Assembly: GCF_900142415.1 (NCBI RefSeq)
Contig: NZ_FRAU01000006.1
Span: 62,001 to 126,000, forward strand
From: Rhodothermus profundi
GTDB lineage: Bacteria > Bacteroidota > Rhodothermia > Rhodothermales > Rhodothermaceae
Direction of reading: 5' to 3'
Length of the DNA: 64,000 nucleotides
The position numbers were made by a program, and so were the translations under genes. Under the pieces are notes generated by a model. It was given only the letters and a program-made list of their open reading frames with translations. It did not search any database and was not told where the DNA came from. This document shows, piece by piece, positions 38,960 through 55,152 of this stretch; position 1 is the stretch's first letter, and each line of letters opens with the position of its first letter.

Positions 38960-39736
38960 ATGGGCTGGAAGTGGATACGCTGGACGCTGACGTTTTCGTT
39001 TTTCTTTGCGCCTTCCCTCAAAGCCCAGCAGTTTTTCACCGACTGCGTCAGGGACACCGATAACAACGCTACCTTGACGGTACCGCTTGACACGCCGCCC
39101 CTGCTTAATGGCAAGCCTATCTCGCCGGGTAGTGAACTAGCTGCTTATACGCCCGAGGGTATCTGTGCAGGGGTGGCTGTATGGGATGGACAGCAGCCGC
39201 TGGTGCTGACGCTCTGGGGCGACGACCCGCTGATCACTCCCGAAACGAAGGAAGGCTTTGCGCCGGGAGATACCATTCTGCTTCATTTATGGGAGCGGAG
39301 TCTGGGGGAGCACGTCGGTCCTGACAATGGTCGATTTGAGGTGCGCTACGCTTCGGGCAATGTGTTCCTGGACAGTGGGCGTTATCAACCCAATGCCCTG
39401 TACAAAGTAGCCCGTCTGGTAATCGTGCCAGAGCGTGCCACCTCCGTAGATCCTGTAACCGAACAACGGCCAGCAATTACGCGGCTACGTGCCGCCTATC
39501 CCAATCCCTTCCAAGCGCACACCACGCTCCAGGTCGAATTGTCGGAAGCCACGCGCGCTCGACTGGTGGTATACAACCTGATGGGGCAGGAAGTGGCTCA
39601 TTTGCTTGACGCGTTGTTACCGCCCGGTGTTTATCAGTACGTCTGGCGACCTGAAGGCTTACCGGCCGGGCTGTATGTCGTTCGGTTGGAAGCAGGGCCT
39701 CACCGCTATCAGCAGGTTGTTGTTTATATCCCCTGA
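38960..39736 (+). CDS. Secreted protein with type IX sorting domain
   Basis: 258 residues with a signal peptide (WTLTFSFFFAPSLKAQ). A beta domain follows with VAVWDG and LTLWGDDP, related in pattern to a segment near residue 1000 of the large protein encoded at 55291-58770. The last 80 residues form a type A T9SS C-terminal domain: AAYPNPFQAHTTLQVEL, VYNLMGQEVAHLLDA, LPAGLYVVRLEAG. Proteins with this domain cross the outer membrane through the type IX system and are released or anchored. No catalytic motif is seen. Its stop overlaps the convergent PqqD-like gene by 13 bases. Confidence 0.85.
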   Translation: MGWKWIRWTLTFSFFFAPSLKAQQFFTDCVRDTDNNATLTVPLDTPPLLNGKPISPGSELAAYTPEGICAGVAVWDGQQPLVLTLWGDDPLITPETKEGFAPGDTILLHLWERSLGEHVGPDNGRFEVRYASGNVFLDSGRYQPNALYKVARLVIVPERATSVDPVTEQRPAITRLRAAYPNPFQAHTTLQVELSEATRARLVVYNLMGQEVAHLLDALLPPGVYQYVWRPEGLPAGLYVVRLEAGPHRYQQVVVYIP

Positions 39737-40059
39737 TCGTCGCGCGTTTCGATCAGTCCTTGCGCCTGCAAATCGCGCATAAGGGCCAAGACGTCTTCAG
39801 CGCACTGCTCGAAGGTCACCTCATATTCTTCAAGCAGCACCTCGCATACCTGACGCACTGAACGCGGTTCTTGAATTAACTCCCAGATACGTGTGCCGAT
39901 AGGATCCAGTCCGTAGTAGACACCATTGCGCAGGTTCAGAATAACCACTTCATCACCCAATTTCGAGGAGACCTGCTCGGGAGAGGCAACCACCACCGTT
40001 TCAAGAGTCAACACAGCACGCTCCATACGTATCTCGGTTCGGCTTAACGAAATCATCAT
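39724..40059 (-). CDS. PqqD-like RiPP recognition protein (lasso B1 type)
   Basis: Up to 111 residues; ATG 40059 and ATG 40026 are both possible starts. The core VSSKLGDEVVILNLRNGVYYGLDPIGTRIWELI followed by VCEVLLEEYEV and LMRDLQAQGLIE is the PqqD-like winged-helix fold. In lasso peptide and related RiPP clusters this discrete protein (B1, RRE) grips the leader peptide and presents it to the modifying enzymes. It lies 17 bases after the ABC exporter gene, on the same strand as three candidate precursors with lasso-type leaders, which supports that role. Confidence 0.88.
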   Translation of the reverse strand: MMISLSRTEIRMERAVLTLETVVVASPEQVSSKLGDEVVILNLRNGVYYGLDPIGTRIWELIQEPRSVRQVCEVLLEEYEVTFEQCAEDVLALMRDLQAQGLIETRDDQGI

Positions 40060-40076
40060 TCCTTGTGCAGCTAAAG

Positions 40077-41963
40077 CTAACGTTTTTTATCGACACCAGG
40101 CAAGGAAACTTGAGGCGGTAGATCTGGAGCAGCGGATTCTCCTTCAATATGTTGGCGCATCTGCCGCCGCCAGGAAGTAGCGTAGCGGCCATTCATTGCC
40201 AGGAGTTGATGATGCGTGCCCTGCTCAACGACGCGTCCTTCGTCCATCACATAGATCAGGTCCGCCCGCATGGCTGTTGTAAATCGGTGGGTAATGATCA
40301 GCGCTGTCCGGCCGCGCACCAGCTCACCAAAACGGTCCATCCATTCGGCTTCGGTCCATGAGTCCATCGCACTAGTGGGCTCATCCAGCACAACGATAGG
40401 GGCCTGTCGATAAAAGGCACGGGCCAGGGACACGCGTTGCCATTCTCCTCCGCTGAGCTCCGCTCCTTCTTCCGAAAACCATTTACCCAGGGGCGTGTCA
40501 TATCCATAGGGCAGCTTACGGGCGATCTCGTCCACCATAGCGCTGCGCGCTGCCTGTTCGATGGCGTCTCGGGTGGGCGGCACTTTGAGATCGCCCAGTG
40601 TGATGTTACGGGCAAGCGTATCCTGATAGGGTACCGGAAACTGGAACAGCACGGTTATCGCGTCGAGCAGCTCGCGTCGGCGGAAGCGTCGCAGGTCGAT
40701 GCCATCAATCGTGACCCGCCCTTCATCTGGGTCATAGAATCGGCACAATAGCTTGATTAGCGTGCTTTTGCCAGCGCCATTGGCGCCAACGATGGCGACG
40801 GTCTTGCCTGCTGGAATGAACAGATTGAGTTGCTGCAGAACAGGTCGGTTGCTGCCCGGATAGCGAAACGTGACGTTTTCAAAACGAATCCCCTCCCGAA
40901 GGTGGCGGGGTACTGGTACAGGGTTTTCGGGGTCGGGCAAGCCTGTTGGAATTTCCAGGAACGTAAATAGGTGCTCCAGAAAAAGCGTGTTCGCGTACAT
41001 CTGTCCGGCGCTGCTGAGCAGCGCTCGCATCAGTCCCTGCCCCTGGTTGAACGCCTGGTAGAAGAGGGCCAGGTCGCCCAGTGAGGCCAGCCCGCGCAGC
41101 GCTCGTCCGACCATCCAGATCATGACAAGGGCGGTGGCCACCAATCCGACAAGGCCGGCTCCCAGACTGGCCCAGGCCTGCCGGCGCATCAGGTCCAGAC
41201 GCCCCTGTCGCAATCGCCGCCGCACTTCCTGGTATTGCTGCCGAAAGTGATCGGACAGGTCAAACACGCGCACCTCGGGAGCAAAAAAGGCCATGGTCAG
41301 CAGGCGGTCGAAATAGCCGGCTTTGCGCTGGTCTCCCGTGTGGGCTTTCCACCAGGCGTGCTCTCGGCGGTGATGATGCACCACAACAAATAGCGCAGGA
41401 AGGGTGGTAACGAGCAACGCCAGGGGTAACCACACACTGTAGTGCATGAGAATGGCGGCAATGCTCACCAGCGTTACGCCGTTCTGCAGCAGGCTGCCCA
41501 GATTATCGAGCAGGGACAGCGAGCGGTTCGCCGCCTCGCTGTTAGCCCGCTCCAGGTGGTCGTAATAGTCCGGGTTGTCGTAGAAGGCCAGATCGACCTC
41601 GGCGGCTTTGGCATGGATCAGGCTTTTGACATGATCTAGTAAATGTTCAGCCTGGGCGGTGCGGATCCAGCCTGTCAGGCCGCTCAACCCCTGCGAAAGC
41701 AACAGCACGCCCCCCATGAGGAGGGCTGGCCACAGGACGGGCTGGACCGTCTCCCAAGAGAGCCCTCCGCCGATGGCTGCAGCCACTGCATCCACCAGGT
41801 GCTTGGTCAGGTACACCAGTGTGGCTGGCAGCACGCCTCCGACGAGCAGAAGCAGCAGCCACAGCAGCGTCCAGCGGCCCGTTGCCTCCCAGATAAGTCG
41901 TAGCGCCCGTACCAGATAGGTCGTCTTCAGACGCGCTTCCTGAAGTACCCAGCGCCACGACAC
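40077..41963 (-). CDS. ABC exporter of the RiPP cluster (lasso D type)
   Basis: 628 residues from GTG 41963. An N-terminal membrane domain with about six segments (LLWLLLLLVGGVLPATLVYL; LVGLVATALVMIWMVG) precedes an ATPase domain with Walker A GANGAGKSTL, signature LSGGEWQRVSLARA, Walker B IVVLDEPTSAMD and the switch His in IITHRF. There is no N-terminal C39 peptidase domain, so it cannot trim leaders. Lasso clusters usually hold such an exporter for secretion and self-protection. It lies 79 bases after the third precursor-like gene. Confidence 0.92.
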   Translation of the reverse strand: MSWRWVLQEARLKTTYLVRALRLIWEATGRWTLLWLLLLLVGGVLPATLVYLTKHLVDAVAAAIGGGLSWETVQPVLWPALLMGGVLLLSQGLSGLTGWIRTAQAEHLLDHVKSLIHAKAAEVDLAFYDNPDYYDHLERANSEAANRSLSLLDNLGSLLQNGVTLVSIAAILMHYSVWLPLALLVTTLPALFVVVHHHRREHAWWKAHTGDQRKAGYFDRLLTMAFFAPEVRVFDLSDHFRQQYQEVRRRLRQGRLDLMRRQAWASLGAGLVGLVATALVMIWMVGRALRGLASLGDLALFYQAFNQGQGLMRALLSSAGQMYANTLFLEHLFTFLEIPTGLPDPENPVPVPRHLREGIRFENVTFRYPGSNRPVLQQLNLFIPAGKTVAIVGANGAGKSTLIKLLCRFYDPDEGRVTIDGIDLRRFRRRELLDAITVLFQFPVPYQDTLARNITLGDLKVPPTRDAIEQAARSAMVDEIARKLPYGYDTPLGKWFSEEGAELSGGEWQRVSLARAFYRQAPIVVLDEPTSAMDSWTEAEWMDRFGELVRGRTALIITHRFTTAMRADLIYVMDEGRVVEQGTHHQLLAMNGRYATSWRRQMRQHIEGESAAPDLPPQVSLPGVDKKR

Positions 41964-42042
41964 GGTAACCGCTTCCGTTATGCTTCAAAAATGGATGCAC
42001 ATGAGACGACCAAAAGGCAGCGCAGTTTCAAGATGGCTCTGC

Positions 42043-42258
42043 TCAGGGGCCGCTCAGGTTATCATACGGACAGGGGTTATGGTTGTGCTGGTGTCCCCAG
42101 GGTCCTCCGCCCCAACCCCGTCCTCCTCGCTGACCCCAGCCGCCCCATGGAAGGCCCGGTGGCCGTCCCCATCCTGATCCGGTGAGTGTTTCCAAAGAAC
42201 CAAACTCCTTGAGCGTGGGACGCGCCCACGACTTCTTGGGCACTACAGCGTCCGACAT
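42043..42258 (-). CDS. RiPP precursor candidate 3, Gly/Trp/His-rich core
   Basis: 71 residues from ATG 42258, with a GGAG ribosome site at 42266-42269. Residues 11-27 carry the lasso leader spacing: Trp11-x2-Pro14-x-Leu16-x3-Gly20-x5-Thr26-Gly27. The predicted core from Ser28 (44 residues) is mostly Gly, Trp, Pro and Arg, then a His/Asn patch (HQHNHN), and has one Cys (63) and one Asp (66). No acidic residue occurs at core positions 7-9, so a classical lasso ring is not possible. It lies between a terminator and the exporter gene. Glycine-rich antimicrobial or metal binding are guesses. Confidence 0.65.
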   Translation of the reverse strand: MSDAVVPKKSWARPTLKEFGSLETLTGSGWGRPPGLPWGGWGQRGGRGWGGGPWGHQHNHNPCPYDNLSGP

Positions 42259-42269
42259 GGCACAACTCC

Positions 42270-42299
42270 ATTTAGGTGAAAGAGCAGCCTTACCTAAAT
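42270..42299 (-). promoter_or_regulatory. Hairpin next to the ribosome site of precursor 3
   Basis: On the - strand ATTTAGGT, a 14-base loop and ACCTAAAT form a perfect 8-bp stem that ends directly beside the GGAG ribosome site (42266-42269). It could tune translation or stability of the precursor mRNA. Confidence 0.45.
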
Positions 42300-42383
42300 A
42301 AAAGATAACTCGGGTTAATGAGAGCCGCTATTCGTTTTGTCCCGCTGACTATGCGCTTTTGGCGCAATCCAGATAAGCTTTAC

Positions 42384-42418
42384 AAAAAAGGTGCGGTGCT
42401 TTTTAACACCGCACCTTT
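42384..42418 (-). terminator. Terminator after precursor 2
   Basis: On the - strand AAAGGTGCGGTG, an 8-base loop with four unpaired A, and CACCGCACCTTT run into further T residues (TTTTTT in all). It begins 24 bases after the stop of precursor 2 and separates the two paralogous precursors and their upstream operon from precursor 3 and the exporter. Confidence 0.92.
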
Positions 42419-42442
42419 CTCGGGAGTTACGTTGCGGCAAAG

Positions 42443-42532
42443 CTAGCGGCAGTCACTGAGGGAACCAGGGCCCAGATCGGCGTCATACCGTCCGCCCTGT
42501 TTGCCGTACCAGCACCCATCGGAGCTGGCCGT
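42443..42532. repeat. Duplicated core cassette, copy in precursor 2
   Basis: This 90-base tract (codons Thr24 to stop) matches 42669-42758 at 85 of 90 positions by hand alignment, while the leader codons before it match at only about 60 per cent. Confidence 0.85.
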
Positions 42533-42601
42533 CACCTGCTCAGCTTTACCGTGCGTGACAAGCACCGGCTTTTGCCACGGACGTTTGAGTGTTTCACGCA
42601 T
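42443..42601 (-). CDS. RiPP precursor candidate 2 (52 residues, lasso-type leader)
   Basis: 52 residues read directly from the - strand: ATG 42601, stop TAG at 42443, AAAGGT ribosome site 6 bases upstream (42608-42613). The leader has Trp9-x2-Pro12-x-Leu14-x3-Gly18-x5-Thr24-Ala25, the lasso leader spacing with Trp in place of Tyr. The predicted 27-residue core starts at Ser26 and holds Cys30, a GCWYGKQGGRYDADLGP stretch and Cys51. It differs from its paralogue at 42669 by only two core residues (Tyr/Phe, Arg/Gln), while the leaders differ widely. Core acidic residues are at positions 3, 15, 17 and 25, none at 7-9. Confidence 0.8.
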   Translation of the reverse strand: MRETLKRPWQKPVLVTHGKAEQVTASSDGCWYGKQGGRYDADLGPGSLSDCR

Positions 42602-42668
42602 GGCAGCACCTTTATGTTTAGGTGGATGGGGTCTTACAGGTACTACCGATTACGCGATCCGCGCACCC

Positions 42669-42758
42669 TTATCGGCAGTCACTGAGGGAACCAGGGCCCA
42701 GATCGGCGTCATACTGCCCGCCCTGTTTGCCGAACCAGCACCCATCGGAGCTGGCCGT
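42669..42758. repeat. Duplicated core cassette, copy in precursor 1
   Basis: Partner of 42443-42532, offset 226 bases. A run of 43 bases including the last codons is identical in both copies; most of the differences lie in the stop codon and in the two variable core residues. Confidence 0.85.
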
Positions 42759-42827
42759 AATCTCCTGGGGCTTTCCGTGGACAACTAAGACCGGCGCTTT
42801 CCAGGAGCGTTTGACAACGTTACGCAT
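42669..42827 (-). CDS. RiPP precursor candidate 1 (52 residues, lasso-type leader)
   Basis: 52 residues read directly from the - strand: ATG 42827, stop TAA at 42669, with a strong GGAGG ribosome site 7 bases upstream (42835-42839). The leader KRSWKAPVLVVHGKPQEITA has the W-x2-P-x-L-x3-G-x5-T pattern that the PqqD-like protein should bind. The predicted core from Ser26 contains Cys30, GCWFGKQGGQYDADLGP and Cys51. It lies 107 bases after the asparagine-synthetase-like gene and 67 bases before its paralogue, so it is probably expressed with the biosynthetic operon. The modification is not known. Confidence 0.82.
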   Translation of the reverse strand: MRNVVKRSWKAPVLVVHGKPQEITASSDGCWFGKQGGQYDADLGPGSLSDCR

Positions 42828-42934
42828 AGCAATACCTCCACAAAACGTTTATTGGACAGGTTTCGGGTAAAAAGATGCGGATGCTACGGGTACGAGTCAT
42901 ACCAGGAATGGCGGCACTTACGTGCGCTTTTGGC

Positions 42935-44971
42935 TCACTCAACTTTACGCCAACTTGGAAAAGCCCCAACAGCTTTCAGCCAGTGCTGTAGGATAAGACA
43001 CAGGTACAACGCCATATCTACCGTTGGGTTCGTGTCCGCCTGACGTGCCTGCAGGTGATCCCATGCCTGGCGCAGTCGCACCGGCTCTACAAAGGGTTGA
43101 AGCAAAGCGCTTGAAGCAACCATCTGGGCAATGCGCGCTGCTTCAAACCGTAATAGTCCAGAAGTGAATCCATATCCAATATTCGCTTTAGACGAACGCC
43201 ATTGGACCACCGGCGGTAAAATCCCCTCAAGAGCGTTGCGAAGAAGATAACGCGCCCACCCTTTCCGGAGTTTATAGCTTAGGGGCAACTGCAAGCTGAA
43301 CGAGATTACGCGCCGGTCAAAAAAAGGGAATCGTTCTTCAACAGCGAGCCATCCAATGCGAGCATTTGCAAATTCAAGAACCCACTGCCATATTCCTCCC
43401 ACTAACTGGGCCCAGTGCTCTTGACGGGGATGCCACGCACGCTGCCGGTTGGTTTGATGCTGAGCCAGCCATTGCTCTATCAGCGGGGATAAATGATAAG
43501 CTTCTGAAAAACGGACAAGTTTTTCTTGTTGACGCAACCGCTGATGCTCTCGCTTTCGACGCCATGCTACAGGCACCCATGGCCGCACGCCCGCCTGCAT
43601 CAGAAGCTTTCTGAAAGGAATATCGAATCTACGTTGCAGATACCATCCCCCTTTCCAGAAATGCCACCACTGAAAAGAGCGAGCCCATCGCTCAAGAATT
43701 GCGCCCCCGAATTTTTGCGCAACCCGTCTCGCAGAGAGTCCTTCCACCTGAGCAAAACGTTCGACTTCCCGGGCAAACTGGTCCCACTGGCCTCGGTAAA
43801 AAAGATCAGCCAGTAGCGCCCATCCATAAGTAAGTACACTGTCGCCATCCAGGCCACTCAGTATAACTCGCACATTGTGCGTCTTCAGCGCCTGTGCTAC
43901 GCCAACAGGAATATGATAATTTGTAGAGAAAAAGGGCTGACCGTAGATTGAAAGTATCTGGTCCAGATGTACCAAAGGACTGACCTGATCAGCCTGAAAT
44001 ACATGAGGACACAGATTAGGAAAGCGTTGAATTACAGCCTCGGCATATTTACGTTCATCAATATGCGCGCGTTGCGCTGCCGGTATCCTGTCAAAGACAG
44101 CAGTTCCCGCATGCAACACTTGCGGCCTTAGCAGATAGGCTGCCATGCTGGTAACCGATGACGAATCGAGCCCGCCACTGAGCTGGGAACCGATTGGAAA
44201 CGCACTGCGGAGCCGGCAGCGAACCGCCTCCTCAAAACAGGCGCGAAACGCCTCGACGTATTCGGCCTCGGTGCGAAAGCGCAGCTCCTGCTCCAGATCA
44301 GGCTGCCAGTAGCGCCAGCGGCGCAGTCCCTGAACGTCTACCTGCAGCGCATGCCCGCCGGGAAGTCGCCGTATGGCCTGGTAAAACGTGCGTTCTTTTT
44401 CGGTATACTGTGTCTGCGCCAGGAAATGCAGAATCATTTCCTCGTCAATGTCCTGCGGTACTTCGGGCAGCAGCCGCACGGCAGGTAGAAGCGTGGCGAA
44501 AGCAAAACGGTGGCGGTCATACAGGTAGTAAAACGGCCGCACGCCCATACCGTCCCGTGCTGCAAACAGCCGTCGGGCCTGCCGGTCCCAGATGGCAAAG
44601 GCGAAGTCCCCGATCAGACGGTCCGGACAGGCAGTGCCCCAGCGTCGATAGGCTGCCAGAATCAGCTCAGCGTCTGTTATGGGCTGCGCATCCCGGGAAC
44701 GAAGCTGCAGGGCTCGCAGCAGTTCGTCGCGGTTGTCGATGCGCGCATCGGCAACCAGCACCAGATCTCCTTCCGAAGCGATCAGGGGCTGCTGCTCATG
44801 CAACGACTCCGGTGTGGTATGCAGCATCCAATGGGCCAAGAACACGGAGCCTTCCTGCCAATAGCTGTGTCCATCTGGCCCACGATGCGCCAGTGTCTTC
44901 AGCGCCGGTTGCAGCGTTTCAAGCGCTATCGGCCGTCCATTAAAGTGAATTATTCCCAAAATGGCGCTCAT
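42935..44971 (-). CDS. Asparagine-synthetase-like RiPP cyclase (lasso C type)
   Basis: 678 residues. The N-terminal glutaminase-like domain (about 1-200; LAHRGPDGHSYW) begins MSAILGII, so the catalytic Cys2 of glutamine-using AsnB is replaced by Ser and ammonia release from Gln is unlikely. The synthetase domain has the ATP-pyrophosphatase loop SGGLDSSSV at 265-273. Lasso cyclases (McjC type) have this same plan and adenylate an Asp or Glu side chain of the core. The gene overlaps the HprK-like gene by 4 bases (ATGA) and lies directly before the two precursors. Base composition falls sharply after about residue 280. Confidence 0.85.
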   Translation of the reverse strand: MSAILGIIHFNGRPIALETLQPALKTLAHRGPDGHSYWQEGSVFLAHWMLHTTPESLHEQQPLIASEGDLVLVADARIDNRDELLRALQLRSRDAQPITDAELILAAYRRWGTACPDRLIGDFAFAIWDRQARRLFAARDGMGVRPFYYLYDRHRFAFATLLPAVRLLPEVPQDIDEEMILHFLAQTQYTEKERTFYQAIRRLPGGHALQVDVQGLRRWRYWQPDLEQELRFRTEAEYVEAFRACFEEAVRCRLRSAFPIGSQLSGGLDSSSVTSMAAYLLRPQVLHAGTAVFDRIPAAQRAHIDERKYAEAVIQRFPNLCPHVFQADQVSPLVHLDQILSIYGQPFFSTNYHIPVGVAQALKTHNVRVILSGLDGDSVLTYGWALLADLFYRGQWDQFAREVERFAQVEGLSARRVAQKFGGAILERWARSFQWWHFWKGGWYLQRRFDIPFRKLLMQAGVRPWVPVAWRRKREHQRLRQQEKLVRFSEAYHLSPLIEQWLAQHQTNRQRAWHPRQEHWAQLVGGIWQWVLEFANARIGWLAVEERFPFFDRRVISFSLQLPLSYKLRKGWARYLLRNALEGILPPVVQWRSSKANIGYGFTSGLLRFEAARIAQMVASSALLQPFVEPVRLRQAWDHLQARQADTNPTVDMALYLCLILQHWLKAVGAFPSWRKVE

Positions 44972-45930
44972 GCACGCTCCTGCTGCATAAACGCTTCGAT
45001 AGCAGCCACTACGTCAGGCAGCAATTCCAATCCTGGAGGACGCTCCAGTGCCATCACAGGCACGTAGCGCGTCAGATACCCTACCTGCTGGAGATGCCGC
45101 GCTAAAGTCCGGGTTTGCTCCAGTAACACCCGCGTGTACGTGTGCAGCAGCAGCTCAAGAAAAGCTTCCTGTCCGCTCAATGGGCGAATTTGAATGGTCT
45201 CGCCGGGACGCAACGCAAACAGAGCCGCCAGGGGCAGCGGTCGATCTACGCTCTGGGGCACGCGGGTTACCCGTTTGTCAATAGCCGGATGCACGCGGGG
45301 CAATCCATCCGGCATTGTATGCATGGCCTGCGCCAGCGCATCTGGCCAGAGCTTGAGCTGTGGATAGGAGGGCAGAACCAGTGGAGGGCCATCAGACTGC
45401 TCATCCAGCACCAGCACATCATCGGTTACCAGCTGATAGCCCCGAGCATGCAGCGCGGCGGCCATGGTCGACTTGCCGTACCCCTTTTCAGCAATAAAGG
45501 CAACGACGCGCTCTCCCATGGCCACTGCACTGGCATGCAGCACCAGGTGGCCGCGCTGATGCATCAGGATGCCCAGTCCGATACCTAGGATGAGCACCCG
45601 TAGCGTTTCGGCTGGAAGGTCTTCTGGCACGTCAAACGTAATGCGTCGTCCCTCTTCAATGCGCAATAATCCTACCTGGTCGTAGATCAGCAGCGCTTCT
45701 GATGGCGTTACGCGCAGTCGGTTCCCTACCCGCTTTAGCCCGCGGGCCAGGGGCTTGAGATTCGCCCGGTAGACGAAAATCTCTCCCGGCGCTGGCTGAG
45801 CCGCCCGTAGCTCCGGAAGAGGAATTTCGGAGCAGAGATGCAGTCCATAGATCGAATAGTGATACGGCCACTTCTGGCCTGAATCTGCTGTCCTCTCGGA
45901 TGCCACTGCGGAAGACGGGTTGTTCGGCAT
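44968..45930 (-). CDS. HprK-like kinase of the RiPP cluster
   Basis: 320 residues. The start region PYHYSIYGLHLCSEIPLPEL and the central HLVLHASAVAMGERVVAFIAEKGYGKSTMAAAL with a P-loop (residues 147-155) are typical of the HprK-like proteins found beside lasso and related RiPP cyclases; VTDDVLVLD supplies the second acidic motif. Some members phosphorylate a Ser near the lasso peptide C-terminus, and the predicted cores here contain SLSDCR at their ends. Whether this enzyme acts on them is not known. It is translationally coupled to the cyclase gene. Confidence 0.82.
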   Translation of the reverse strand: MPNNPSSAVASERTADSGQKWPYHYSIYGLHLCSEIPLPELRAAQPAPGEIFVYRANLKPLARGLKRVGNRLRVTPSEALLIYDQVGLLRIEEGRRITFDVPEDLPAETLRVLILGIGLGILMHQRGHLVLHASAVAMGERVVAFIAEKGYGKSTMAAALHARGYQLVTDDVLVLDEQSDGPPLVLPSYPQLKLWPDALAQAMHTMPDGLPRVHPAIDKRVTRVPQSVDRPLPLAALFALRPGETIQIRPLSGQEAFLELLLHTYTRVLLEQTRTLARHLQQVGYLTRYVPVMALERPPGLELLPDVVAAIEAFMQQERA

Positions 45931-45984
45931 GCAACGCTGGCTTTTACCTCAGCAAGGGAACAGGTGCCCCGCTCTTGTTGCAAT

Positions 45985-47142
45985 TTAGTTTACCTGACTG
46001 CCTTCCGGATGCGCCGATGGCGCATCTACCGAGCAAGTTTCGGCATACGTCGGAGGGCGACGCCAGCGCAGGCGTGCAATGACAGGACGGTGATCCGAAA
46101 GCTGAACGGCCGGAACCGTTCCCTCCAGCACCTCCCATTCACGGCTGACCAATACATGATCAATGCGTACCAGCGGCCGCGCCGCCGGCCAGGTAGGCGT
46201 TGCAACACCTCCCAGACGGCCCGCTACGCGCAGACCTTGAGCCAGTTGACCGTAGAACCACTGGTCTGGCGTACTGTTGAAGTCCCCACTCAGGATAAGC
46301 GGCAACTGCTCCTGCGCAATCCATGCGCGGAGTTGCCGTACCTGCCGGGCTCGTTGCAGCATAGCCTTGCGATAGGCACCAAGCCATTGCCGCCAGGCTG
46401 CGAGGCGTTTCCAGTGGCCATTACGCAGCATTTCCCAGGGCTTGACCGGTCCGTATGACTGGAGCCGCACATTGTAGTGCACAAAGCGGCGCCCTTGCCA
46501 GCACAGCTCACTCCGAACGGCCTGATAGATGAGCCCTTCAGGGCCGCGTGCCAGCGGACGAGTCTCTTGCTGCATAACCGGCAGGCGTGTCATGGTGACC
46601 ACCTCAGCAAACATGGGCCCGCGTGCGGAGTCGGGCGTCGAGAATTGATAGCCCTGCCGTTCCACTAACGGACGCAAATGGTGAATCAGTCGAACGGTGG
46701 ACGTACGCTGAGGCCGAATAAAACGCCAGACGCCCACCTCCTGGAAGCTTATCACCTGCGGACGATAATGGGACGCAAAGGCCAGCAGCGTATCGCCCAG
46801 GCCCGGCTGATGCGTATCCGGTAGGTTGTAAGTCATGACCACAAGGGTATCCCCACGCGCATTTTCTGACGATACCTCGTAGAACGGAGCATGCCGCAGG
46901 CCATACAGCACCAGAGCCAGCAGTGCGCCTCCTGACCAGATCCAGCGCCGTTGCCATAGCATTAGCACAGCCCACCCTCCAAGTGCAGCGACCAGCAACG
47001 GTAGTCCCACAGCGAGTAGCTGCAACCACCAGGCTACTTCGGGAGGAATCCAGTAGGCCAGATAGGCAACCGCAAAAAGCCCCAGCAGACTTCCTCCCCC
47101 TGCATAGAAGAGCAGAGGAAGGGGCTTGCGAGCAGATGGCAT
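45985..47142 (-). CDS. Membrane-anchored endonuclease/exonuclease/phosphatase family protein
   Basis: 385 residues. Three membrane segments fill the first 85 residues (FYAGGGSLLGLFAVAYLAYW; LLAVGLPLLVAALGGWAVLML; WSGGALLALVLYGL). The rest is an EEP-fold domain with MTYNLPDT, the metal-binding Glu in SFQEVG, the catalytic GDFNSTPD and the final SDHRPV. The family includes nucleases, phosphodiesterases and phosphatases, and the substrate is not evident. It lies 7 bases after the SAF-domain oxidoreductase and 54 before the HprK-like gene, inside the same - strand operon. Confidence 0.85.
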   Translation of the reverse strand: MPSARKPLPLLFYAGGGSLLGLFAVAYLAYWIPPEVAWWLQLLAVGLPLLVAALGGWAVLMLWQRRWIWSGGALLALVLYGLRHAPFYEVSSENARGDTLVVMTYNLPDTHQPGLGDTLLAFASHYRPQVISFQEVGVWRFIRPQRTSTVRLIHHLRPLVERQGYQFSTPDSARGPMFAEVVTMTRLPVMQQETRPLARGPEGLIYQAVRSELCWQGRRFVHYNVRLQSYGPVKPWEMLRNGHWKRLAAWRQWLGAYRKAMLQRARQVRQLRAWIAQEQLPLILSGDFNSTPDQWFYGQLAQGLRVAGRLGGVATPTWPAARPLVRIDHVLVSREWEVLEGTVPAVQLSDHRPVIARLRWRRPPTYAETCSVDAPSAHPEGSQVN

Positions 47143-47149
47143 GAAGCGT

Positions 47150-48349
47150 TTAACGCGTGGTCGTTGCGGTTACGGGCTGTTCTTCGACGGCCTTTTTCAG
47201 TCGCACCCGCTCCAGGATTTCCTGCCAGGCGCGCAGCGCCAGCGTATCGGGTAGCTCCACGTCGTCAAAGCGAATTAACTCGCCGGGTTCGATGTCGCGC
47301 GTCAGCATAGCCCCTGCCATGAGACCGATCGGGACATGATCCGGTTCGTCCAGAATGCGCACCGCCTCGCCCCGCACATCAAAGCTTCCGATTCCCCGTT
47401 CAATGCGGGTGCCTTTGGCAAGAGGGCGTTTGGCAACGGTGGCCACACTGATGCGCGGATGGCTTGTGTTGTTCAGCAGAATGCGCCGCTCGAAAAGCAC
47501 GCGTCGAATGGTTTTCTGGATTTCAAGATGGCAGAGATGGAACGGGCGTAGCAGGACATAATAGGGGCCATCGCCCAGTTTGAGATACTGCAGATAGTCG
47601 CGCTGATAGTCGTCGTGTTCGGCTGCAATGAACACGCCAGCCGGCGCGCCGGGTGAGAGCACGTAGTCGCTGATCGGATGTCCGAGCCGGCGGGCGCCAT
47701 CCGCTAGCGTACGCGCCCCTACTTCCACATCAGGCGACTGAATGCCCAGCATGCCACGTACGGCAATATCGGCCCCCAGTCCATTGGCTACCAGGGCTTG
47801 CTCGATCTGCACCTTGGTGCCATCGGTAAAGGCAGTCACCTGCGGAAGTGTAATCCCCTGTTTTCGGGCCCAGAAGTGCATCTCTTCAGGAGTGGGATTA
47901 TGGTTCAGGTAGCGTTTGATATTGCCATAAACCAGCGGCCGGAATCCCATCTGCAGAATATCTTCGCGCAGCGCAGCCAGGCAGCCCGGCTGGTCGCCCT
48001 CCGCTTCGGTCAGCAGCCCGCGATCGACAAAGTAGGAGCCGGTCGTAATGTGAAACTCTGCATCCATGGTTACGACCGGCAGTCCGGCTTCCAGCACCCG
48101 GTTAACCACTTCCGTTGCATGAATCACATCGCCACTGCACTCGACCACCAGATCGGCATGTTCAATCAGGTCGTCCAGGCTGTTGGTAAGGAGTTCCGGT
48201 CGCGGAAAATCTGGGCGATTGCGAATGTCGGTACGCGTCAAGACGCGGGTTACGCGCAGATCCTTTACATGCTGCATCGCCATGACAAAGCCGCGGGCGA
48301 TGAAGCCGCTGCCAACCACCCCGATGCGATAGGAATCTGCCATGGACAT
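47150..48349 (-). CDS. NAD(P)-dependent oxidoreductase with C-terminal SAF domain
   Basis: 399 residues. An N-terminal Rossmann fold (RIGVVGSGFIARGFVMAM) resembles homoserine dehydrogenase-like enzymes. The middle has the segment HFWARKQGITLPQVTAFTDG, and the end is a SAF domain (VAKRPLAKGTRIERGIGSFD; MLTRDIEPGELIRFDDVELP), known from sialic acid synthases and related sugar enzymes. The reaction is unknown. It lies between the GMC oxidoreductase and the EEP protein with 7-base gaps on both sides, so it belongs to the operon. ATG 48343 is an alternative start. Confidence 0.82.
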   Translation of the reverse strand: MSMADSYRIGVVGSGFIARGFVMAMQHVKDLRVTRVLTRTDIRNRPDFPRPELLTNSLDDLIEHADLVVECSGDVIHATEVVNRVLEAGLPVVTMDAEFHITTGSYFVDRGLLTEAEGDQPGCLAALREDILQMGFRPLVYGNIKRYLNHNPTPEEMHFWARKQGITLPQVTAFTDGTKVQIEQALVANGLGADIAVRGMLGIQSPDVEVGARTLADGARRLGHPISDYVLSPGAPAGVFIAAEHDDYQRDYLQYLKLGDGPYYVLLRPFHLCHLEIQKTIRRVLFERRILLNNTSHPRISVATVAKRPLAKGTRIERGIGSFDVRGEAVRILDEPDHVPIGLMAGAMLTRDIEPGELIRFDDVELPDTLALRAWQEILERVRLKKAVEEQPVTATTTR

Positions 48350-48356
48350 TCACTCG

Positions 48357-49997
48357 TCAGGTTAGACGCGTTCTCAAATGATCCGCAAGCCGCAAGCTCA
48401 GTGCCACAATTGTTAGCGTCGGGTTTGCAAAACCACCTGTCGGAAAAACAGACGATCCAGTTACATACAGATTCTTTACACCGTGCACGCGACAGTTGGG
48501 ATCCACGACCCCTTCGCGGGGGCTGGCATGCATACGGGTGGTTCCCATGTGATGGAATCCCCCGGTAATCCCATCGGGGGGTATGCGGCGTAACGTTTCC
48601 ACCTGCACACGCCCCCATCCCAGATGGGCCAGTTCCCGGGCAACCAGTTGCTGCGCGCGCTGCAGGCTTTCTACATCCTGGCGACTGATCTGCCAGTGCA
48701 GTTCCAGGCGTGGCTGTCCAAACACATCCCTGCGACGGGACAGCCGCACCCGACTTTCTGGATTCGGGGCCTGCTCGGTCATATGATGCAGCACAAAAGC
48801 GACCGGCATGCGCTCCTCACTTTTTTTGCCTTTTAGAGAGAGCAGGCGCGTGGTAGCCCAGGGGATTAAGCGAGGCATATCACGTGCCAATCGGAAAAGC
48901 TGGCGAGGTAAGTCTTCTGGCCAGGTGCGGTGCCGAACCGCTTCCCGCAGGATGCGCAGCGCTTCAAATCCGCCCCAGAGCAACGGATTGTTGCGACGGG
49001 GCAGCGCGGCGCGATCGCTTGGCCAGAGCGCCACGCAGTAATTCAGCAGTCCCTCGCGCCGCACCACTTCCTCCCGCAGAGCCAGTTTCCCCATGATCCA
49101 GGTATCTCCTTGGCGGTGCAGCCGATAAAAGCCCAGTTGGGGAATTAACGTGCGGTCGGCCGGTACAAACACACCCGAGAGAAAATGGAGGTGCTCCATA
49201 AAAAACCGCCCGACCCGGTCATAGCTGTTTCCTAGCCCCTGAGGGCAGACCTGGTTGGAGAGCAGCAGCAGACGCGCATTCTCCAGACCACCGGCGGCCA
49301 GCACAAAACAGCGCGCGCGTATCGTCACCGTAGCCCGATCAGGCCGCGCAACTCGAACGCCCTCGACCACCTCTCCGGTTTCATTGGTCAGCAGTTCAAG
49401 CACATGGGCGTGCAGGCATACGGTCACGTTTGGCGCAGCCAGCAACGCCGGCCCATAGACCTGGTAAAAGCGCGTGGGATCGCCAAACTGAAACAAGGCC
49501 GTGCGCAACACCCCACTTCCTTCAGAGAGCAACGGGCGCTCCGTAGCCGAGGCCCAGGCTTCGGCCGTATAGGGACGATCTTCCAGTCCAAAAAAAGCCT
49601 GCGCTCGGCGATAGTACGGCGCAACCGTCTCATAGCCAAAAGGCCAACCGCTGAACGAAATGCCTTCGCGCCGTTCAAAATCAAGGGGATCAAGAGGACG
49701 CAGCCGAATGCGACAGACGCCCGGTGCGACTTCGTAATCCCAGAGGTGGCTCGAACCGCCCAGCGCACGTGCCCGGGCCATATCCAGCGGAAAATAAGGA
49801 TAGCCAGTAATGTCGCCCCGGCTCAGCCGATTGGTAGCCGGTTCTGGCCGCTCACCTCCGGTCTCCACCAGACAAATGCGCAGCCCACTCTCACGCAGCG
49901 CCCACGCCAGCGTTAGTCCAGCGACACCTCCACCTACAATGCATAAATCGTACGGCCCGAGTTCTGGCTGTTCAAATACCTGTAGGTCAATTTTCAT
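48357..49997 (-). CDS. GMC-family FAD-dependent oxidoreductase
   Basis: 546 residues from ATG 49997, which overlaps the stop of the nucleotidyltransferase (ATGA) and has a GGGGGA ribosome site; the frame is open further upstream. The FAD site is YDLCIVGGGVAGLTLAWAL, with CLVETGGE as the ribose-binding acidic strand. The C-terminal GMC signature is HHMGTTRMHASP and GSSVFPTGGFANPTLTIVALSLRLADHL. GMC enzymes oxidise alcohols or sugars. The substrate may be a sugar or polyol attached to a secondary metabolite; this is an inference from the operon. Confidence 0.9.
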   Translation of the reverse strand: MKIDLQVFEQPELGPYDLCIVGGGVAGLTLAWALRESGLRICLVETGGERPEPATNRLSRGDITGYPYFPLDMARARALGGSSHLWDYEVAPGVCRIRLRPLDPLDFERREGISFSGWPFGYETVAPYYRRAQAFFGLEDRPYTAEAWASATERPLLSEGSGVLRTALFQFGDPTRFYQVYGPALLAAPNVTVCLHAHVLELLTNETGEVVEGVRVARPDRATVTIRARCFVLAAGGLENARLLLLSNQVCPQGLGNSYDRVGRFFMEHLHFLSGVFVPADRTLIPQLGFYRLHRQGDTWIMGKLALREEVVRREGLLNYCVALWPSDRAALPRRNNPLLWGGFEALRILREAVRHRTWPEDLPRQLFRLARDMPRLIPWATTRLLSLKGKKSEERMPVAFVLHHMTEQAPNPESRVRLSRRRDVFGQPRLELHWQISRQDVESLQRAQQLVARELAHLGWGRVQVETLRRIPPDGITGGFHHMGTTRMHASPREGVVDPNCRVHGVKNLYVTGSSVFPTGGFANPTLTIVALSLRLADHLRTRLT

Positions 49998-51184
49998 GGG
50001 TTTCCCCCAGGATGCAATCGCTCTACCAATACGCGCACCGGCCGAATGAGCGGATAGAGAAAGGTAAGCTGCTCGGGCAACCGGCAAAACGCCCGATCTT
50101 TTTCGGTAGGAGCCAGGGCCAACTTTAGATGATGTCCCAGATAGCCCAGGCGGTGGCGCCAGCGTTCGCGCTCTCTGAGATGATACCAGAACACAGGCCA
50201 GAAGGCATAGACCTCGGTATTGTCTCGAAACATCCACCGATGGACAACTTCGCGGGCCATGCGGTGTGCTATGCGTCTCTGACGCAACCGAGATTGTATG
50301 CCTTCTGGCACCGGCGCCCCCAGCAACGCTTCAGCTAAAATGAGTCCAATGGCCAGCACCCGTTCCACCCCAAGATCGCGTGCCTGCTGCGCGACAAAGC
50401 TCCAGTCCAGCTCCGGACAGCGGCGCACCAACTCGGCCACATCAGCCACCCAGGTCAGCTTGAGCCAGCGGTGTTTGTTGCCATGAATGACGAGATACAG
50501 CAGCAGGTCTTCAGGAGCCATGGTGCGTATGGTGCGCCCGGCGAAAGGCACCGGTCGATGCCGCGCCCATATAGCTTCAGGGTCCAGCGCCAGGTCATAG
50601 ATCGTGTAGAAAAAGGCCCAGTGGAGTTCGACGACAAAATGGCGACTTTCGTGGATGAATTCGAAGCCGAGCTGCGTATCGAGATACGCTTCTTCTTCGG
50701 CACCGGACAGCATTTTATGGGCCTGATACCCCATGGCTTCCAGGACGCGACGCGCCTTTCGAAAATCAGCACGTCGCACGAGCAGATCGATGTCCACGTA
50801 CACCCGCGCGGCCGGATCGCCATAGATAAGGGCAGCCAGCGCGGGCCCTTTGAAAGGAAGCACCGGAATCCCTTCCGCTTCCAGTTGATCAATGAGCCGC
50901 AACAACTCCTGGGTCTGGTGCAGGTTATGGAGGGCCAGCGACCGCGCTTCGCTTTCTAACCGAAGACGCCAGGGTTCCGGAATCGCATCCGGTGCTATCT
51001 GCAGAAGATTGCGATATACCAGCGCCACCACGCCATGCCGCAACACCCACCGATACAGACGGGCCCAGTCGAGCGGCTGCGCCAGCAGCGCCCGCAATTT
51101 TTCGGCTGACGGTGTCTCCACCTGAGTCCGCGCTGCCAGCGCCAGCACCTGGGCTTCTAAGGGGAGCGCCGAAAACAGCGACAT
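49994..51184 (-). CDS. Nucleotidyltransferase family protein (PF14907 type)
   Basis: 396 residues. The centre reads IPVLPFKGPALAALIYGDPAARVYVDIDLLVRRADF, the characteristic pattern of the nucleotidyltransferase family often found in lasso peptide clusters (D-x-D in YVDIDLLV as metal site), followed by FEFIHESRHFVVELHWAF and HLGVIHGNKH-like helices near LLLYLVIHGNKHRWLKL. The C-terminus has the usual YLGHHLKLAL and LYPLIRPVRV. Targets of this family are not established. It lies 7 bases after the GT2 gene and overlaps the GMC gene by 4. Confidence 0.85.
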   Translation of the reverse strand: MSLFSALPLEAQVLALAARTQVETPSAEKLRALLAQPLDWARLYRWVLRHGVVALVYRNLLQIAPDAIPEPWRLRLESEARSLALHNLHQTQELLRLIDQLEAEGIPVLPFKGPALAALIYGDPAARVYVDIDLLVRRADFRKARRVLEAMGYQAHKMLSGAEEEAYLDTQLGFEFIHESRHFVVELHWAFFYTIYDLALDPEAIWARHRPVPFAGRTIRTMAPEDLLLYLVIHGNKHRWLKLTWVADVAELVRRCPELDWSFVAQQARDLGVERVLAIGLILAEALLGAPVPEGIQSRLRQRRIAHRMAREVVHRWMFRDNTEVYAFWPVFWYHLRERERWRHRLGYLGHHLKLALAPTEKDRAFCRLPEQLTFLYPLIRPVRVLVERLHPGGNP

Positions 51185-51191
51185 GGCTTGC

Positions 51192-52307
51192 TCAGGAAAA
51201 AAACGAAGGAGACGCCTCCCGGGCGGTGCCTTCAGGCACCGTAGGCTTTATCGAGGGATTCGGCAGAGGGTGTCGGAACAACTCCTCTGGATAGTTAGGC
51301 ACAGGCTGCCGCCAGATCCGACTGCGCAGCCAGCGCACGCCTCGTGAGATCCAACTTCCTGGTGGCCCCAGAAACGTTAACGCATACCCCACGCTGCTCC
51401 GTAACGTCCAGCGCAGGCGCAGGGCCTGGCGCAGCCGCTCCCGAGCGGCCGCTCGCTGCCCCAGCGTCAGCAGTGTATTGCCATAAGTCGTCAGCGCATA
51501 AGCCATTCGCGCTTCAAAGATGGGGCGATAAGGCGCCAGATCCGGATCTTGCAAAAAATGTCGATAGCAGAACAGCTCGCCTTCAAATCCATACAGGCGC
51601 CAGTTCCAACTGCGGCTGACCCCGCCCGGTTGCCATCGACAACTGGCCAATCGCTGCGACACGTAATAGGCACCTCCTTGCTGAGCGCACCGATAGAGCA
51701 GCCACAGGTCTACCATAGCCCGCGCTTCATCCGCCAGGAACGTAGGCTGCACACGGTCGCGCCGAAACAGCACCGCCCCAATGAACACGGCCCGATCAAT
51801 CAGCGCCACCCGCAGAAAATCTTTTACCGGCCCTTCGGGCAGGCGCGCGCGTCGCCAGCGTCGGGTGTTACGCTCACTGTCGTCTGGCAACCGGCGTCCT
51901 TCGCCATCCATCACCCAGTGATCACAGAAGGCAAGAACCAGCTCTGGATGCTGGCGGAGCGGTTGCAGCAGCGTTTCTACAAACGTGGGTTCGAGTGCAT
52001 CGTCGTCACCCAGGAAACAGAAGAACTCGCCCTGCGCTATTTCAACGCCCTGCCGCCAGTTAGCTACCAATCCTCGGTTTCGATGGTTACGCACGTACAG
52101 GATGCGGTTGTCCTGCTCCTGGAAGGCCTGCACCACGGCGGGCGTGCGGTCCGTACTGGCATCGTCCAGCACAATGATTTCCAGGTGAGGATACGTCTGG
52201 GCACAAGCACTTTCCAGCGCTGTCTGTAAGTATCCGGCCCGATTGAAGGTCGGAATCAAAATGCTGACCAGCGGACTGCTATCCCCCCGACGGCTGGTTT
52301 GCGGCAT
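51192..52307 (-). CDS. Glycosyltransferase family 2
   Basis: 371 residues from ATG 52307, which has a GAGG ribosome site; a TTG at 52322 is in frame. GT2 motifs are complete: SILIPTFNRAGYLQTALES, IIVLDDASTDRTPAVV, RGLVANWRQGVEIAQGEFFCFLGDDDALEP with the D-x-D-like DDD metal site, and a later W-containing acceptor region. It transfers a sugar from a nucleotide donor. It is the first gene of the tightly packed - strand operon that ends with the asparagine-synthetase-like gene, so it could glycosylate the RiPP product, but a cell-surface glycan role is equally possible. Confidence 0.9.
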   Translation of the reverse strand: MPQTSRRGDSSPLVSILIPTFNRAGYLQTALESACAQTYPHLEIIVLDDASTDRTPAVVQAFQEQDNRILYVRNHRNRGLVANWRQGVEIAQGEFFCFLGDDDALEPTFVETLLQPLRQHPELVLAFCDHWVMDGEGRRLPDDSERNTRRWRRARLPEGPVKDFLRVALIDRAVFIGAVLFRRDRVQPTFLADEARAMVDLWLLYRCAQQGGAYYVSQRLASCRWQPGGVSRSWNWRLYGFEGELFCYRHFLQDPDLAPYRPIFEARMAYALTTYGNTLLTLGQRAAARERLRQALRLRWTLRSSVGYALTFLGPPGSWISRGVRWLRSRIWRQPVPNYPEELFRHPLPNPSIKPTVPEGTAREASPSFFS

Positions 52308-52467
52308 TGGCGCCTCACACAACGTTGGCTGAAAAATGCATAACTCCTTATGAGCAATACGTCGAGCACGCCTAAAAGATTAGCACACAACGCAGCCCAG
52401 GGCGCATCGGTTTTGACCGATCCGGCATGCGCCAACGGCGCAAGCTACCCGTCTGGATAACGCCTGA

Positions 52468-55152
52468 CTACTTCTGCACAATAAGCGTACGGCTTGCCGA
52501 ATACGGGCCGGCCTGTAGCCGAAACACGTATCGTCCGCTGGCCAATGCCTGCACGTCAAAAGGCACGCGGTGCCGCCCTGCCGGTTGCACCGCATCGACT
52601 ACCACTGCCACCCGACGTCCCAGCAGATCATAAATCTCCAGCCGAACGGGAAGCGTCTGCGGCAGCGTATACGGGAACGTAACCTTACGCACTGCAGGAT
52701 TAGGATAGGGTGCTTTCACTTCGAAAGTCCTCGCCTCTTTTCCTTCTGCAGAAGTTGGTGTTCCCTCCTGGTTTAAGAAGAACCGTTCCCAGTTACCGCC
52801 CGGCGAGATCGTTTCCCAGAAGCGGGCGACGCTGTCCAGTAATGTCGGCCGCACCCCCAGACACTGGGCATTGTAGAGATATTGCATAAAGGCTCGGTTC
52901 TTCCAATCGCTGAGATTGACTCCTGTTGACGGATGCCCATCTGCCGTACACTTTTCTTTGGGGACGTCAAAAACGGTCTCGGGTGGTTCAATGCCGTTCG
53001 ATCCGCCCACGCGTTTCCCATAAAGCGTCTGCCAGTGCCGCAGGTCGTAACGCGCAGCCTCTATGAACCATGCGCGCAATAGATTTTCCGTGATGAGTCG
53101 GAGCGTGTCTCGCGAAAGTGCCCGGAATCCCACCGGCATGTAATGCGACCCAAACCATACCAGCGGGGTAGAGACCTTCAGATTGCGCATGCCATTGCGC
53201 CGCGTGGTTCCCCAGCCGGGGGTGAACCCTTCTTCGGCATACCAGGAGGCGTGCGCCTGCATCGAGGCCAGTACATAGTAGAGATGCCCAACGGTATGAT
53301 TACGCCCGTAGCCCGTCAGGGCATTGCGGCTTACCTCAAAAATGTAGGACCAATCAATTGCCCCACCGCTGGGATTATCGGTGCGAAGCCGCGGCGTCAA
53401 AATAGTAGCCAGATGCCACCAGGCCAGGTCCTCGTATTTTAACCGGACCTTAGTTGGAAAGGGAGCTGCCGAATACTTTTCGTTTTTCGACAGGCGATGC
53501 ATGGTCTGGTCCATCAGCCAGGGTCCGGTAAGCAACAGGGCCCGATCGGCCTTTTGCATCGAAAGGCCGCGTAGATTATCCCCGTAGACGTCTGCGTAGC
53601 GATCCTCCAGCTTATACTGCACCTGAAGTTCCCACATTTTCATGAGAAACCAGCGCGCCACGGCAATGTGCATGATCCGCCCTCTTGGATCTTTAGGATA
53701 GCGTCCGCCCCACTCAGGCGGCGGGTTCAGATCGTCATGCGGATTATGCTTCGGGTTGAGTCGGAAGTTGTACCGTTGGAAAAGTTGTGCCAGCCCTTCA
53801 TCCCACTTACCAGAATTACGACTTTTCCGCTGCTGCTCCACGTAGAAATCGGGTCCCTTCTCTGCCAGCAGCCTCTTAATGGTCAGGTAATTCTGATAGT
53901 ACGTTGAGTTGTGCCAGACATCTTCGGGGAAGAAATCGCCGGGATAAACCTGAGGCCACCAGGCAAAAATGTCGGGCAGCTCAAAACTCACCGGAATGTC
54001 GGCCAGCACGAGGGTGGAATCGAGCCGCCAGTAGCGGCTCACGTTTGTCCAGGAGAGATCCGCTTCAGGTTGGAGCAGGTCCGGATCCGGGACGCCCTGA
54101 AGCGCATCCAGCACCGCCTGAAAGCGGGCGCTTGGTGCCAGAAAAGCCAGCATTTGTTGATCGGAGTCCAGCACCCATCGCCGTCCGGCGCCAGCTGCCC
54201 AGCATTCCACCGGCCGCTTGGACAACCCCGGCCCGGGCTGATACGGTGGATCCCATGGACGCCCGCCACAGCTCGAAACCGTCTCTCCGGCAGGAAGCTG
54301 GAGATCAACCGAACGAATGTAGGCGGCTATCTTCTTTCCCTCCTCTTCAGTAAGCCCATGAAACTTCGCTCGTTCTATAATGGAGCGATTCGAAAAGTTG
54401 AAATACTTCAGATCAAAGCCGCTTTCGGCATGGCAGTCGGCGCAGGCGGCGACGATAGGTTCTGGATGCGTCGGGTTGTCGATCAGGATGTGGCGGCTTT
54501 TCCAGAGGCGTTCGCCTTCAGCTATCGCTGCAGGCGAATCGTATCCCGCCGGAGGCCCCCACTGCGCTGGATCGTCCCACACAAAACGGGTCCCCTGCAG
54601 CACGCTCTGCCCGTTGCGCCCTCCGCGCCGAAGGTCCAACGCCAGCACACGGTAGCCTGAACTCAAGCCCTCTGTCTTGTTAAACCGGAACTCAATCGTA
54701 TTGCGACCCGGACGCAACTTGCCCGTACCCCGAATGGAAATCATGCCCCGAAGCGTCCGGTATGGCCCGCCTATCGGTCCCGTAAGCGGCGGCGCATACA
54801 TGCGCGCCTCCGGATAAAAGGCTTTAAAATGGGCATTGTCTATGGGAATCCAGGGGCCCCCATTGATACGGAACGACGCTTTTTTGTCGTATCCGCCGGT
54901 ATCTTCCAGCGCTGGTGTGTACGTATACCCCAGGGCATGGGCTTTTAAATACATGGAATCGACGCCGGTGGTGTCGGACACGTAGACCTCGACGGCCACC
55001 GTGTAGCCGTCTGGCCCGATCACCTCAATGGGAAGCACCACCACCACCTCCTCATTGGCATGAAGCTGCTCAGAAACGATGATCAATGCGCCGATGCCTG
55101 CAAGTATAAAGCTGCTGAAAAGCGCAAGCAGCGAACGACGGCAGTACTGCAT
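52468..55152 (-). CDS. Type IX-secreted monohaem cytochrome-domain protein A
   Basis: 894 residues with a signal segment (LFSSFILAGIGALIIVSEQLHA). Residues 30-190 form a beta domain. A c-type haem motif C237-A-D-C240-H241 is followed by LTEEEGKKIAAYIRSVD, the usual end of a class I cytochrome c fold. The large central part (about 300-790) is Trp/Tyr-rich with no recognised family. A type A T9SS sorting domain ends the protein (PYPNPAVRKVTFPYTL, YDLLGRRVAVV, LASGRYVFRLQAG). It is paralogous to the next protein. A secreted redox or binding protein is inferred. Confidence 0.8.
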   Translation of the reverse strand: MQYCRRSLLALFSSFILAGIGALIIVSEQLHANEEVVVVLPIEVIGPDGYTVAVEVYVSDTTGVDSMYLKAHALGYTYTPALEDTGGYDKKASFRINGGPWIPIDNAHFKAFYPEARMYAPPLTGPIGGPYRTLRGMISIRGTGKLRPGRNTIEFRFNKTEGLSSGYRVLALDLRRGGRNGQSVLQGTRFVWDDPAQWGPPAGYDSPAAIAEGERLWKSRHILIDNPTHPEPIVAACADCHAESGFDLKYFNFSNRSIIERAKFHGLTEEEGKKIAAYIRSVDLQLPAGETVSSCGGRPWDPPYQPGPGLSKRPVECWAAGAGRRWVLDSDQQMLAFLAPSARFQAVLDALQGVPDPDLLQPEADLSWTNVSRYWRLDSTLVLADIPVSFELPDIFAWWPQVYPGDFFPEDVWHNSTYYQNYLTIKRLLAEKGPDFYVEQQRKSRNSGKWDEGLAQLFQRYNFRLNPKHNPHDDLNPPPEWGGRYPKDPRGRIMHIAVARWFLMKMWELQVQYKLEDRYADVYGDNLRGLSMQKADRALLLTGPWLMDQTMHRLSKNEKYSAAPFPTKVRLKYEDLAWWHLATILTPRLRTDNPSGGAIDWSYIFEVSRNALTGYGRNHTVGHLYYVLASMQAHASWYAEEGFTPGWGTTRRNGMRNLKVSTPLVWFGSHYMPVGFRALSRDTLRLITENLLRAWFIEAARYDLRHWQTLYGKRVGGSNGIEPPETVFDVPKEKCTADGHPSTGVNLSDWKNRAFMQYLYNAQCLGVRPTLLDSVARFWETISPGGNWERFFLNQEGTPTSAEGKEARTFEVKAPYPNPAVRKVTFPYTLPQTLPVRLEIYDLLGRRVAVVVDAVQPAGRHRVPFDVQALASGRYVFRLQAGPYSASRTLIVQK
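54554..54638. repeat. 85-bp segment identical to 58184-58268
   Basis: The bases of this segment are identical to those at an offset of 3630 within the paralogous gene. The surrounding sequence is similar but not identical, pointing to recent duplication or gene conversion. Confidence 0.85.

Follow-up and report, generated by a model that had tools for sequence, protein, structure and literature searches.

The stretch of DNA analyzed here (the window) comprises 64,000 nt of Rhodothermus profundi, contig NZ_FRAU01000006.1, from a genome of 3.14 Mb in 18 contigs that is labelled G000 among the genomes compared. It contains a putative biosynthetic operon for ribosomally synthesized and post-translationally modified peptides (RiPPs) with three precursor peptides, P1, P2 and P3, followed upstream by a five-gene cassette. 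An original prediction, made from the letters alone, had called this a RiPP locus with lasso-type leaders and named PqqD, ABC exporter, AsnB-like, HprK-like, PF14907, GMC, SAF, EEP and GT2 genes. Open reading frames (ORFs) and hidden Markov model (HMM) scans placed all nine enzymes and the three peptides on the minus strand at 39724-52322, with coordinates and HMM scores confirming each named gene. Curated HMMs and conservation bear out the general call and support a lasso-type RiPP system that is already catalogued, as rhodolasso; the unusual part is the missing ring acceptor. Beyond the original prediction, we found that the precursors have no ring acceptor, that the operon has no B2 protease, and that the cassette is separable from the operon. 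The peptide operon consists of the following features:

39724-40059, minus strand: B1, the RiPP recognition element (RRE), PqqD-like, 111 aa (PF05402, 76.7 bits; NF033536 lasso_PqqD_Bac, 80.6 bits, cut-off 80)
40077-41963, minus strand: D, MsbA-like ABC exporter, 628 aa, GTG start (PF00005, PF00664)
42043-42258, minus strand: precursor P3, 71 aa, core SGWGRPPGLPWGG...NLSGP (lasso leader; orthologues in 7 of 7 genus genomes)
42385-42420, minus strand: intrinsic-terminator-like hairpin and T run between P2 and P3 (fold -24.7 kcal/mol)
42443-42601, minus strand: precursor P2, 52 aa, core SSDGCWYGKQGGRYDADLGPGSLSDCR (NF033534 rhodolasso, 107.9 bits, cut-off 30; orthologues)
42669-42827, minus strand: precursor P1, 52 aa, core SSDGCWFGKQGGQYDADLGPGSLSDCR (NF033534 rhodolasso, 115.6 bits, cut-off 30; orthologues)
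42935-44971, minus strand: C, AsnB-like macrolactam (isopeptide) cyclase, 678 aa (NF033535, 792 bits, cut-off 525)
44968-45930, minus strand: K, HprK-like kinase, 320 aa, motif H...EKGYGKS...DD (TIGR04352, 43.8 bits, below its cut-off)

The three peptides carry the exact leader spacing W(-17)xxP(-14)xL(-12)x3G(-8)x5T(-2), as had been predicted, and all pass a leader test of [Y/W]xxPx[LIV] plus T at -2. A genome-wide search at the DNA level, which covered Trp-type leaders only, gave 13 matches versus 9 with the reversed pattern, and three of the 13 are P1, P2 and P3. The suggested check for co-occurrence in related genomes came out in favor of the peptides: P3-type sequences are present in all seven Rhodothermus genomes and P1/P2-type sequences in six of seven in the sequence examined, the seventh being G054, where the contig stops just past the cyclase gene. 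Pairwise ratios of nonsynonymous to synonymous substitution (dN/dS) between orthologues were 0.07-0.25 in all pairs tested except P3 of G297a and G054 (0.44), and P3 orthologues ranged from 0.08 to 0.44. Because dN/dS is low between orthologues across the genus, we take the precursor peptides to be translated genes under purifying selection; orthologues and dN/dS together rule out chance ORFs.

The NCBIfam model NF033534, named 'rhodolasso', matches P1 and P2 over their full length and excludes P3, which has no family match in NCBIfam or Pfam. No paper describing 'rhodolasso' was found in the literature searched, and the model's description contains neither the missing acceptor nor the remote B2 found in the Rhodothermus system. 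P1/P2 and P3 have little in common beyond the leader and a C-terminal 'LS', which is missing only from G297a P1. The P3 core is rich in His, Gly and Trp; in all seven P3 peptides it opens with SG[W/F]GxPP, and LSG lies near the end in all but G054 (LSRI). T(-2) has its usual spacing from WxxPxL in every peptide but one, G297a, which has Ile. The sister genome G297 encodes two distinct cyclases whose precursors also differ (L056 2432-2650 and L057 239-394), one of the precursors having Ile at -2.

Lasso peptides are defined by a ring that joins residue 1 to an Asp or Glu at position 7-9, a feature that methods for predicting precursors depend on. Core numbering was anchored on W(-17), P(-14), L(-12), G(-8) and T(-2), with the same rule used for precursors of other genera. 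By this numbering, an Asp/Glu at core position 7-9 occurs in 0 of 17 Rhodothermus precursors versus 33 of 35 precursors beside related cyclases elsewhere, a comparison set that was retrieved from a single collection with two short peptide patterns and gives no frequency estimate for such precursors. The contrast is clear (Fisher p 8e-12, a value that overstates independence, as sequences from one genus are not independent). No P3-type core has an acceptor at 7-9, and that of G151 has no Asp or Glu at all. A search for an overlooked fourth precursor with a canonical acceptor gave none: the strict motif picked out no further short ORF with a leader at the B2 loci, at the remote cassette loci or within the operon, and extra genome-wide matches to the Trp-type leader pattern were at chance level.

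In place of the usual acceptor, all 11 P1/P2-type sequences (ten distinct) contain Cys...Lys-x-x-Gly-x-x-Asp...Cys, with a Lys-to-Asp spacing that is always six. The position of the Lys varies through indels and falls at core 7, 9 or 13 counted from T(-2), so a fixed K-x5-D at a variable distance from the predicted cleavage site is a poor fit to an N-terminal ring of fixed size. The two other exceptions to the acceptor rule, L027 and L095, lie outside the clade formed by the Rhodothermus and L108 cyclases and both have K4-x5-D10. In L090, a canonical relative from a cyanobacterium, K1-V-I-G-F-G-D7 is the normal ring straight after T(-2), which looks like the Rhodothermus ring motif in its usual place. 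Canonical-looking precursors with Lys1 and Asp7 are found at L090 7528, L030 12121 and L114 7567; in these, rings through the alpha-amine and the side-chain amine are indistinguishable by sequence. Two methanogen (archaeal) contigs, L097 10952 and L098 10958, carry a lasso-type cyclase and an adjoining precursor with an ordinary acceptor.

The absence of an acceptor is not matched by decay of the cyclase, which was ruled out: the window's enzyme retains 24 of 24 columns conserved in at least 95% of related cyclases, and the gene is intact in all genomes and shares an operon with P1/P2. The protein starts MSAI and thus lacks the Cys2 glutaminase nucleophile. At 57-74% identity to the window's protein it is among the fastest-evolving of the enzyme set, compared with 82-96% for the exporter and the SAF protein (82-92% for the exporter in six sister genomes). 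In a tree of 89 cyclases the Rhodothermus sequences form one clade (support 100) whose sister is L108, from an Acidobacterium (97), the only non-Rhodothermus member of the clade found. Convergent to the L108 cyclase gene are a PqqD gene and a precursor with a W-leader and T(-2), and its core also has no D/E at 7-9 and reads C5, K12-AQ-G15-VN-D18, C29. When this core was shuffled, K..G..D between two Cys arose in 0.3% of shuffles. The only clade-specific cyclase substitution that might have explained an altered ring, M23A, is absent from L108, and no plasmid record matched the cyclase at E 1e-60.

Since a conserved, intact lasso cyclase accompanies precursors without an acceptor throughout a culturable thermophilic genus, either the cleavage rule or the cyclization rule appears to be incomplete, and these peptides would be cut or crosslinked by some route so far undescribed.

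Profile searches found no B2 protease in the peptide operon. The genome of the window has a single NF033537 match (71.8 bits, cut-off 33), which lies at a second locus. PF13471 likewise matches once per genome in all seven, at the second locus outside the operon. This locus has the layout NTP5-like, B2, HprK-like, PqqD, but G151 and the genome of the window have no kinase there and only fragments of NTP5, with B2 and PqqD intact. At L003 8779-11600 (G000:C1), the decaying NTP5 lies beside the intact B2 and PqqD, and the kinase of the sister species is missing. Because B2 and PqqD are intact where their neighbors have decayed, the pattern suggests that B2 is needed by something beyond its own locus, for which the peptide operon would be the obvious user. 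With B2 supplied in trans, the pathway would look incomplete to searches confined to a cluster. Of the usual lasso features, the operon has the leader, the discrete RRE (80.6 bits, cut-off 80) and the isopeptide cyclase (792 bits, cut-off 525), and it lacks B2 in the cluster and Asp/Glu at 7-9. That the peptides work with lasso machinery is well supported by these features; that the system makes a lasso peptide is a further claim, for which it is only a candidate.

The gene content resembles paeninodin/pseudomycoidin clusters, which also combine a WxxP leader, a discrete RRE, an HprK-like kinase, a cyclase, an ABC exporter and a nearby PF14907 gene (PMC9266682, PMC13381572). Unlike those clusters, the Rhodothermus operon has no B2, its cores have no D/E at 7-9, and its PF14907 gene is separable. 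The prediction of an unrecognized subclass therefore holds in part: P1 and P2 belong to NCBIfam rhodolasso and the kinase/NTP set is of paeninodin/pseudomycoidin type, but cores without the defining acceptor are unusual. HprK-like kinases elsewhere modify a C-terminal Ser or Ser3 (PMC9266682, PMC10368454, PMC13381572). In contrast to the C-terminal Ser of paeninodin-type substrates, the Rhodothermus peptides end LSDCR, LSGP or LSGL, with the Ser a few residues inward, and the Ser of 'LS' would be the obvious candidate for the kinase site. The nucleotide motif H...GYGKS...DD is intact in the window's kinase, although the first Gly of the BsfK motif is Ala (PMC10368454). Ile(-2) in G297a and a kinase-containing cluster are shared with Bsf-type precursors (Gly1-Asp8; PMC10368454), unlike the other Rhodothermus precursors, which retain Thr(-2). 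HMM scans of the nine operon and cassette proteins found neither an ATP-grasp ligase, the mark of graspetides, nor a SipW-like or signal-peptidase-like protein.

To account for these observations, we propose a split lasso-type RiPP pathway in which the ring is displaced inward and P3 is linear, a reading to which we give an even chance and in which we infer every chemical step, phosphorylation site, ring and disulfide from sequence. The PqqD-type RRE would bind P1, P2 and P3 through W(-17)xxPxL, the HprK-like kinase would phosphorylate all three, probably at the Ser in the 'LS' that they share near the C-terminus, and the B2 protease from the second locus would trim them after T(-2). The AsnB-type cyclase would act on P1 and P2 and, instead of joining residue 1 to an Asp/Glu at 7-9, would close a 7-residue ring that has moved inward, possibly as a Lys(i)-Asp(i+6) isopeptide via the Lys side chain; a disulfide between the two conserved Cys would lie around this ring. 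P3, without an acceptor, would stay linear; the ABC transporter would export the products, and the neighboring separable sugar-type cassette may or may not decorate them. More tentatively, and with some doubt, the cyclase clade of Rhodothermus and at least one Acidobacterium may close an internal Lys-Asp side-chain ring in general, with the N-terminal extension tied to the tail by the disulfide and P3 sharing the leader and kinase as a linear peptide.

Several points weigh against an inward ring made with a remote B2. The K-x5-D might serve for recognition or have a structural role, and in most P1/P2 sequences a Gly lies eight residues ahead of the Asp, so that a second cleavage might give an ordinary Gly1-Asp8 lasso ring. 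The L108 cyclase falls under the NF033535 cut-off (403 of 525 bits), and its branch in the tree is long. B2 retains its Cys and His, but the third member of its presumed catalytic triad varies within the genus, and the remote B2 could serve a different substrate.

The chief rival is an ordinary lasso peptide with shifted leader cleavage, cut before the Gly or the Lys of GKQGGxxD to give a Gly1-Asp8 or Lys1-Asp7 ring through the alpha-amine. GKQGGxxD, with its eight-residue spacing, is present in the P1/P2 peptides from four species as well as in P1 of G151, the related cyanobacterial precursor uses K1-x-x-G-x-G-D7 right after T(-2), and NCBI names the family 'lasso peptide'. However, T(-2) at its canonical distance in all but G297a places the expected cut upstream, and a cut at the Gly or Lys would discard a conserved Cys with the leader. 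The residues ahead of the Lys have nothing in common, and neither the G297 peptides nor L108 keep the Gly that precedes the Lys, which lowers this alternative to one we consider rather unlikely.

A less probable alternative, which we regard as improbable, is that the products are linear phosphopeptides like those of the Bacillota LPP family and that the cyclase is weakly active or acts on another substrate. The Rhodothermus genes include the RRE, HprK kinase, NTP transferase and ABC exporter that form the core of LPP clusters, and LPP precursors, like P3, have no usable acceptor (PMC13381572). Yet the Rhodothermus leader lacks the LPP consensus. LPP clusters also encode no cyclase and rely on a SipW-like peptidase (PMC13381572), whereas Rhodothermus has a cyclase and a B2-type protease. 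The persistence of this cyclase beside P1/P2, and of the Lys, the Asp and two Cys within them, also argues against purely linear products. If residue 1 were instead joined to the conserved Asp in a large N-terminal macrolactam, the usual nucleophile would be retained and the sole conserved Asp employed. The ring of 13, 15 or 19 residues would, however, differ between orthologues with two-residue indels and exceed the 7-9 residues of known lasso cyclase rings, making this reading very improbable.

Upstream of the kinase gene lies the cassette, which the original prediction had placed with the peptides in one compact operon as tailoring genes:

45985-47142, minus strand: EEP-family protein with hydrophobic N-terminus, 385 aa (PF03372, 62.6 bits; weak VanJ similarity)
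47150-48349, minus strand: DRL_cat and SAF oxidoreductase, 399 aa (PF21135, 130.8 bits; PF08666, 26.4 bits; relative of PDB 3upl/3upy)
48357-49997, minus strand: GMC oxidoreductase, 546 aa from the ATG at 49997 (PF05199, 98.6 bits)
49994-51184, minus strand: PF14907 nucleotidyltransferase (NTP5), 396 aa, motif GDP..DIDLLV (PF14907, 220.6 bits)
51192-52322, minus strand: family 2 glycosyltransferase (GT2), 376 aa (PF00535, 122.6 bits)

The linkage stands in the window, and the cassette is present in at least six of the seven genus genomes; in G000, G296, G054 and G151 it lies immediately upstream of the kinase gene. Together with the finding that a PF14907-type gene is required for the hexose on pseudomycoidin (PMC9266682), this would fit a pathway in which the cassette yields a heavily glycosylated, oxidized product, a proposal compatible with any of the rings above. 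The tailoring claim is weakened, however, by the sister species G003 and G008, in which all five genes lie together ~245 kb from the peptide operon and still downstream of the same two large secreted CxxCH proteins that precede the cassette in the window. DRL-type relatives elsewhere sit among nucleotide-sugar and glycosyltransferase genes, not peptides, and the nearest solved structures to the GMC protein are glucose/fructose dehydrogenase and pyranose oxidase. Because of this distance and these sugar-related similarities, we treat the cassette as a probable separate sugar-type unit with a possible link to the peptides; its membership in the peptide pathway is doubtful.

The two secreted proteins next to the cassette (52468-55152 and 55291-58770, minus strand) are long paralogues, each with a CxxCH motif of the haem type and a sorting domain at the C-terminus. 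A scan for consensus promoters and terminators gave matches no better than in shuffled sequence. The hairpin between P2 and P3 has an equivalent in G003, G008 and G296, which with the window makes four species, and a variant in G151.

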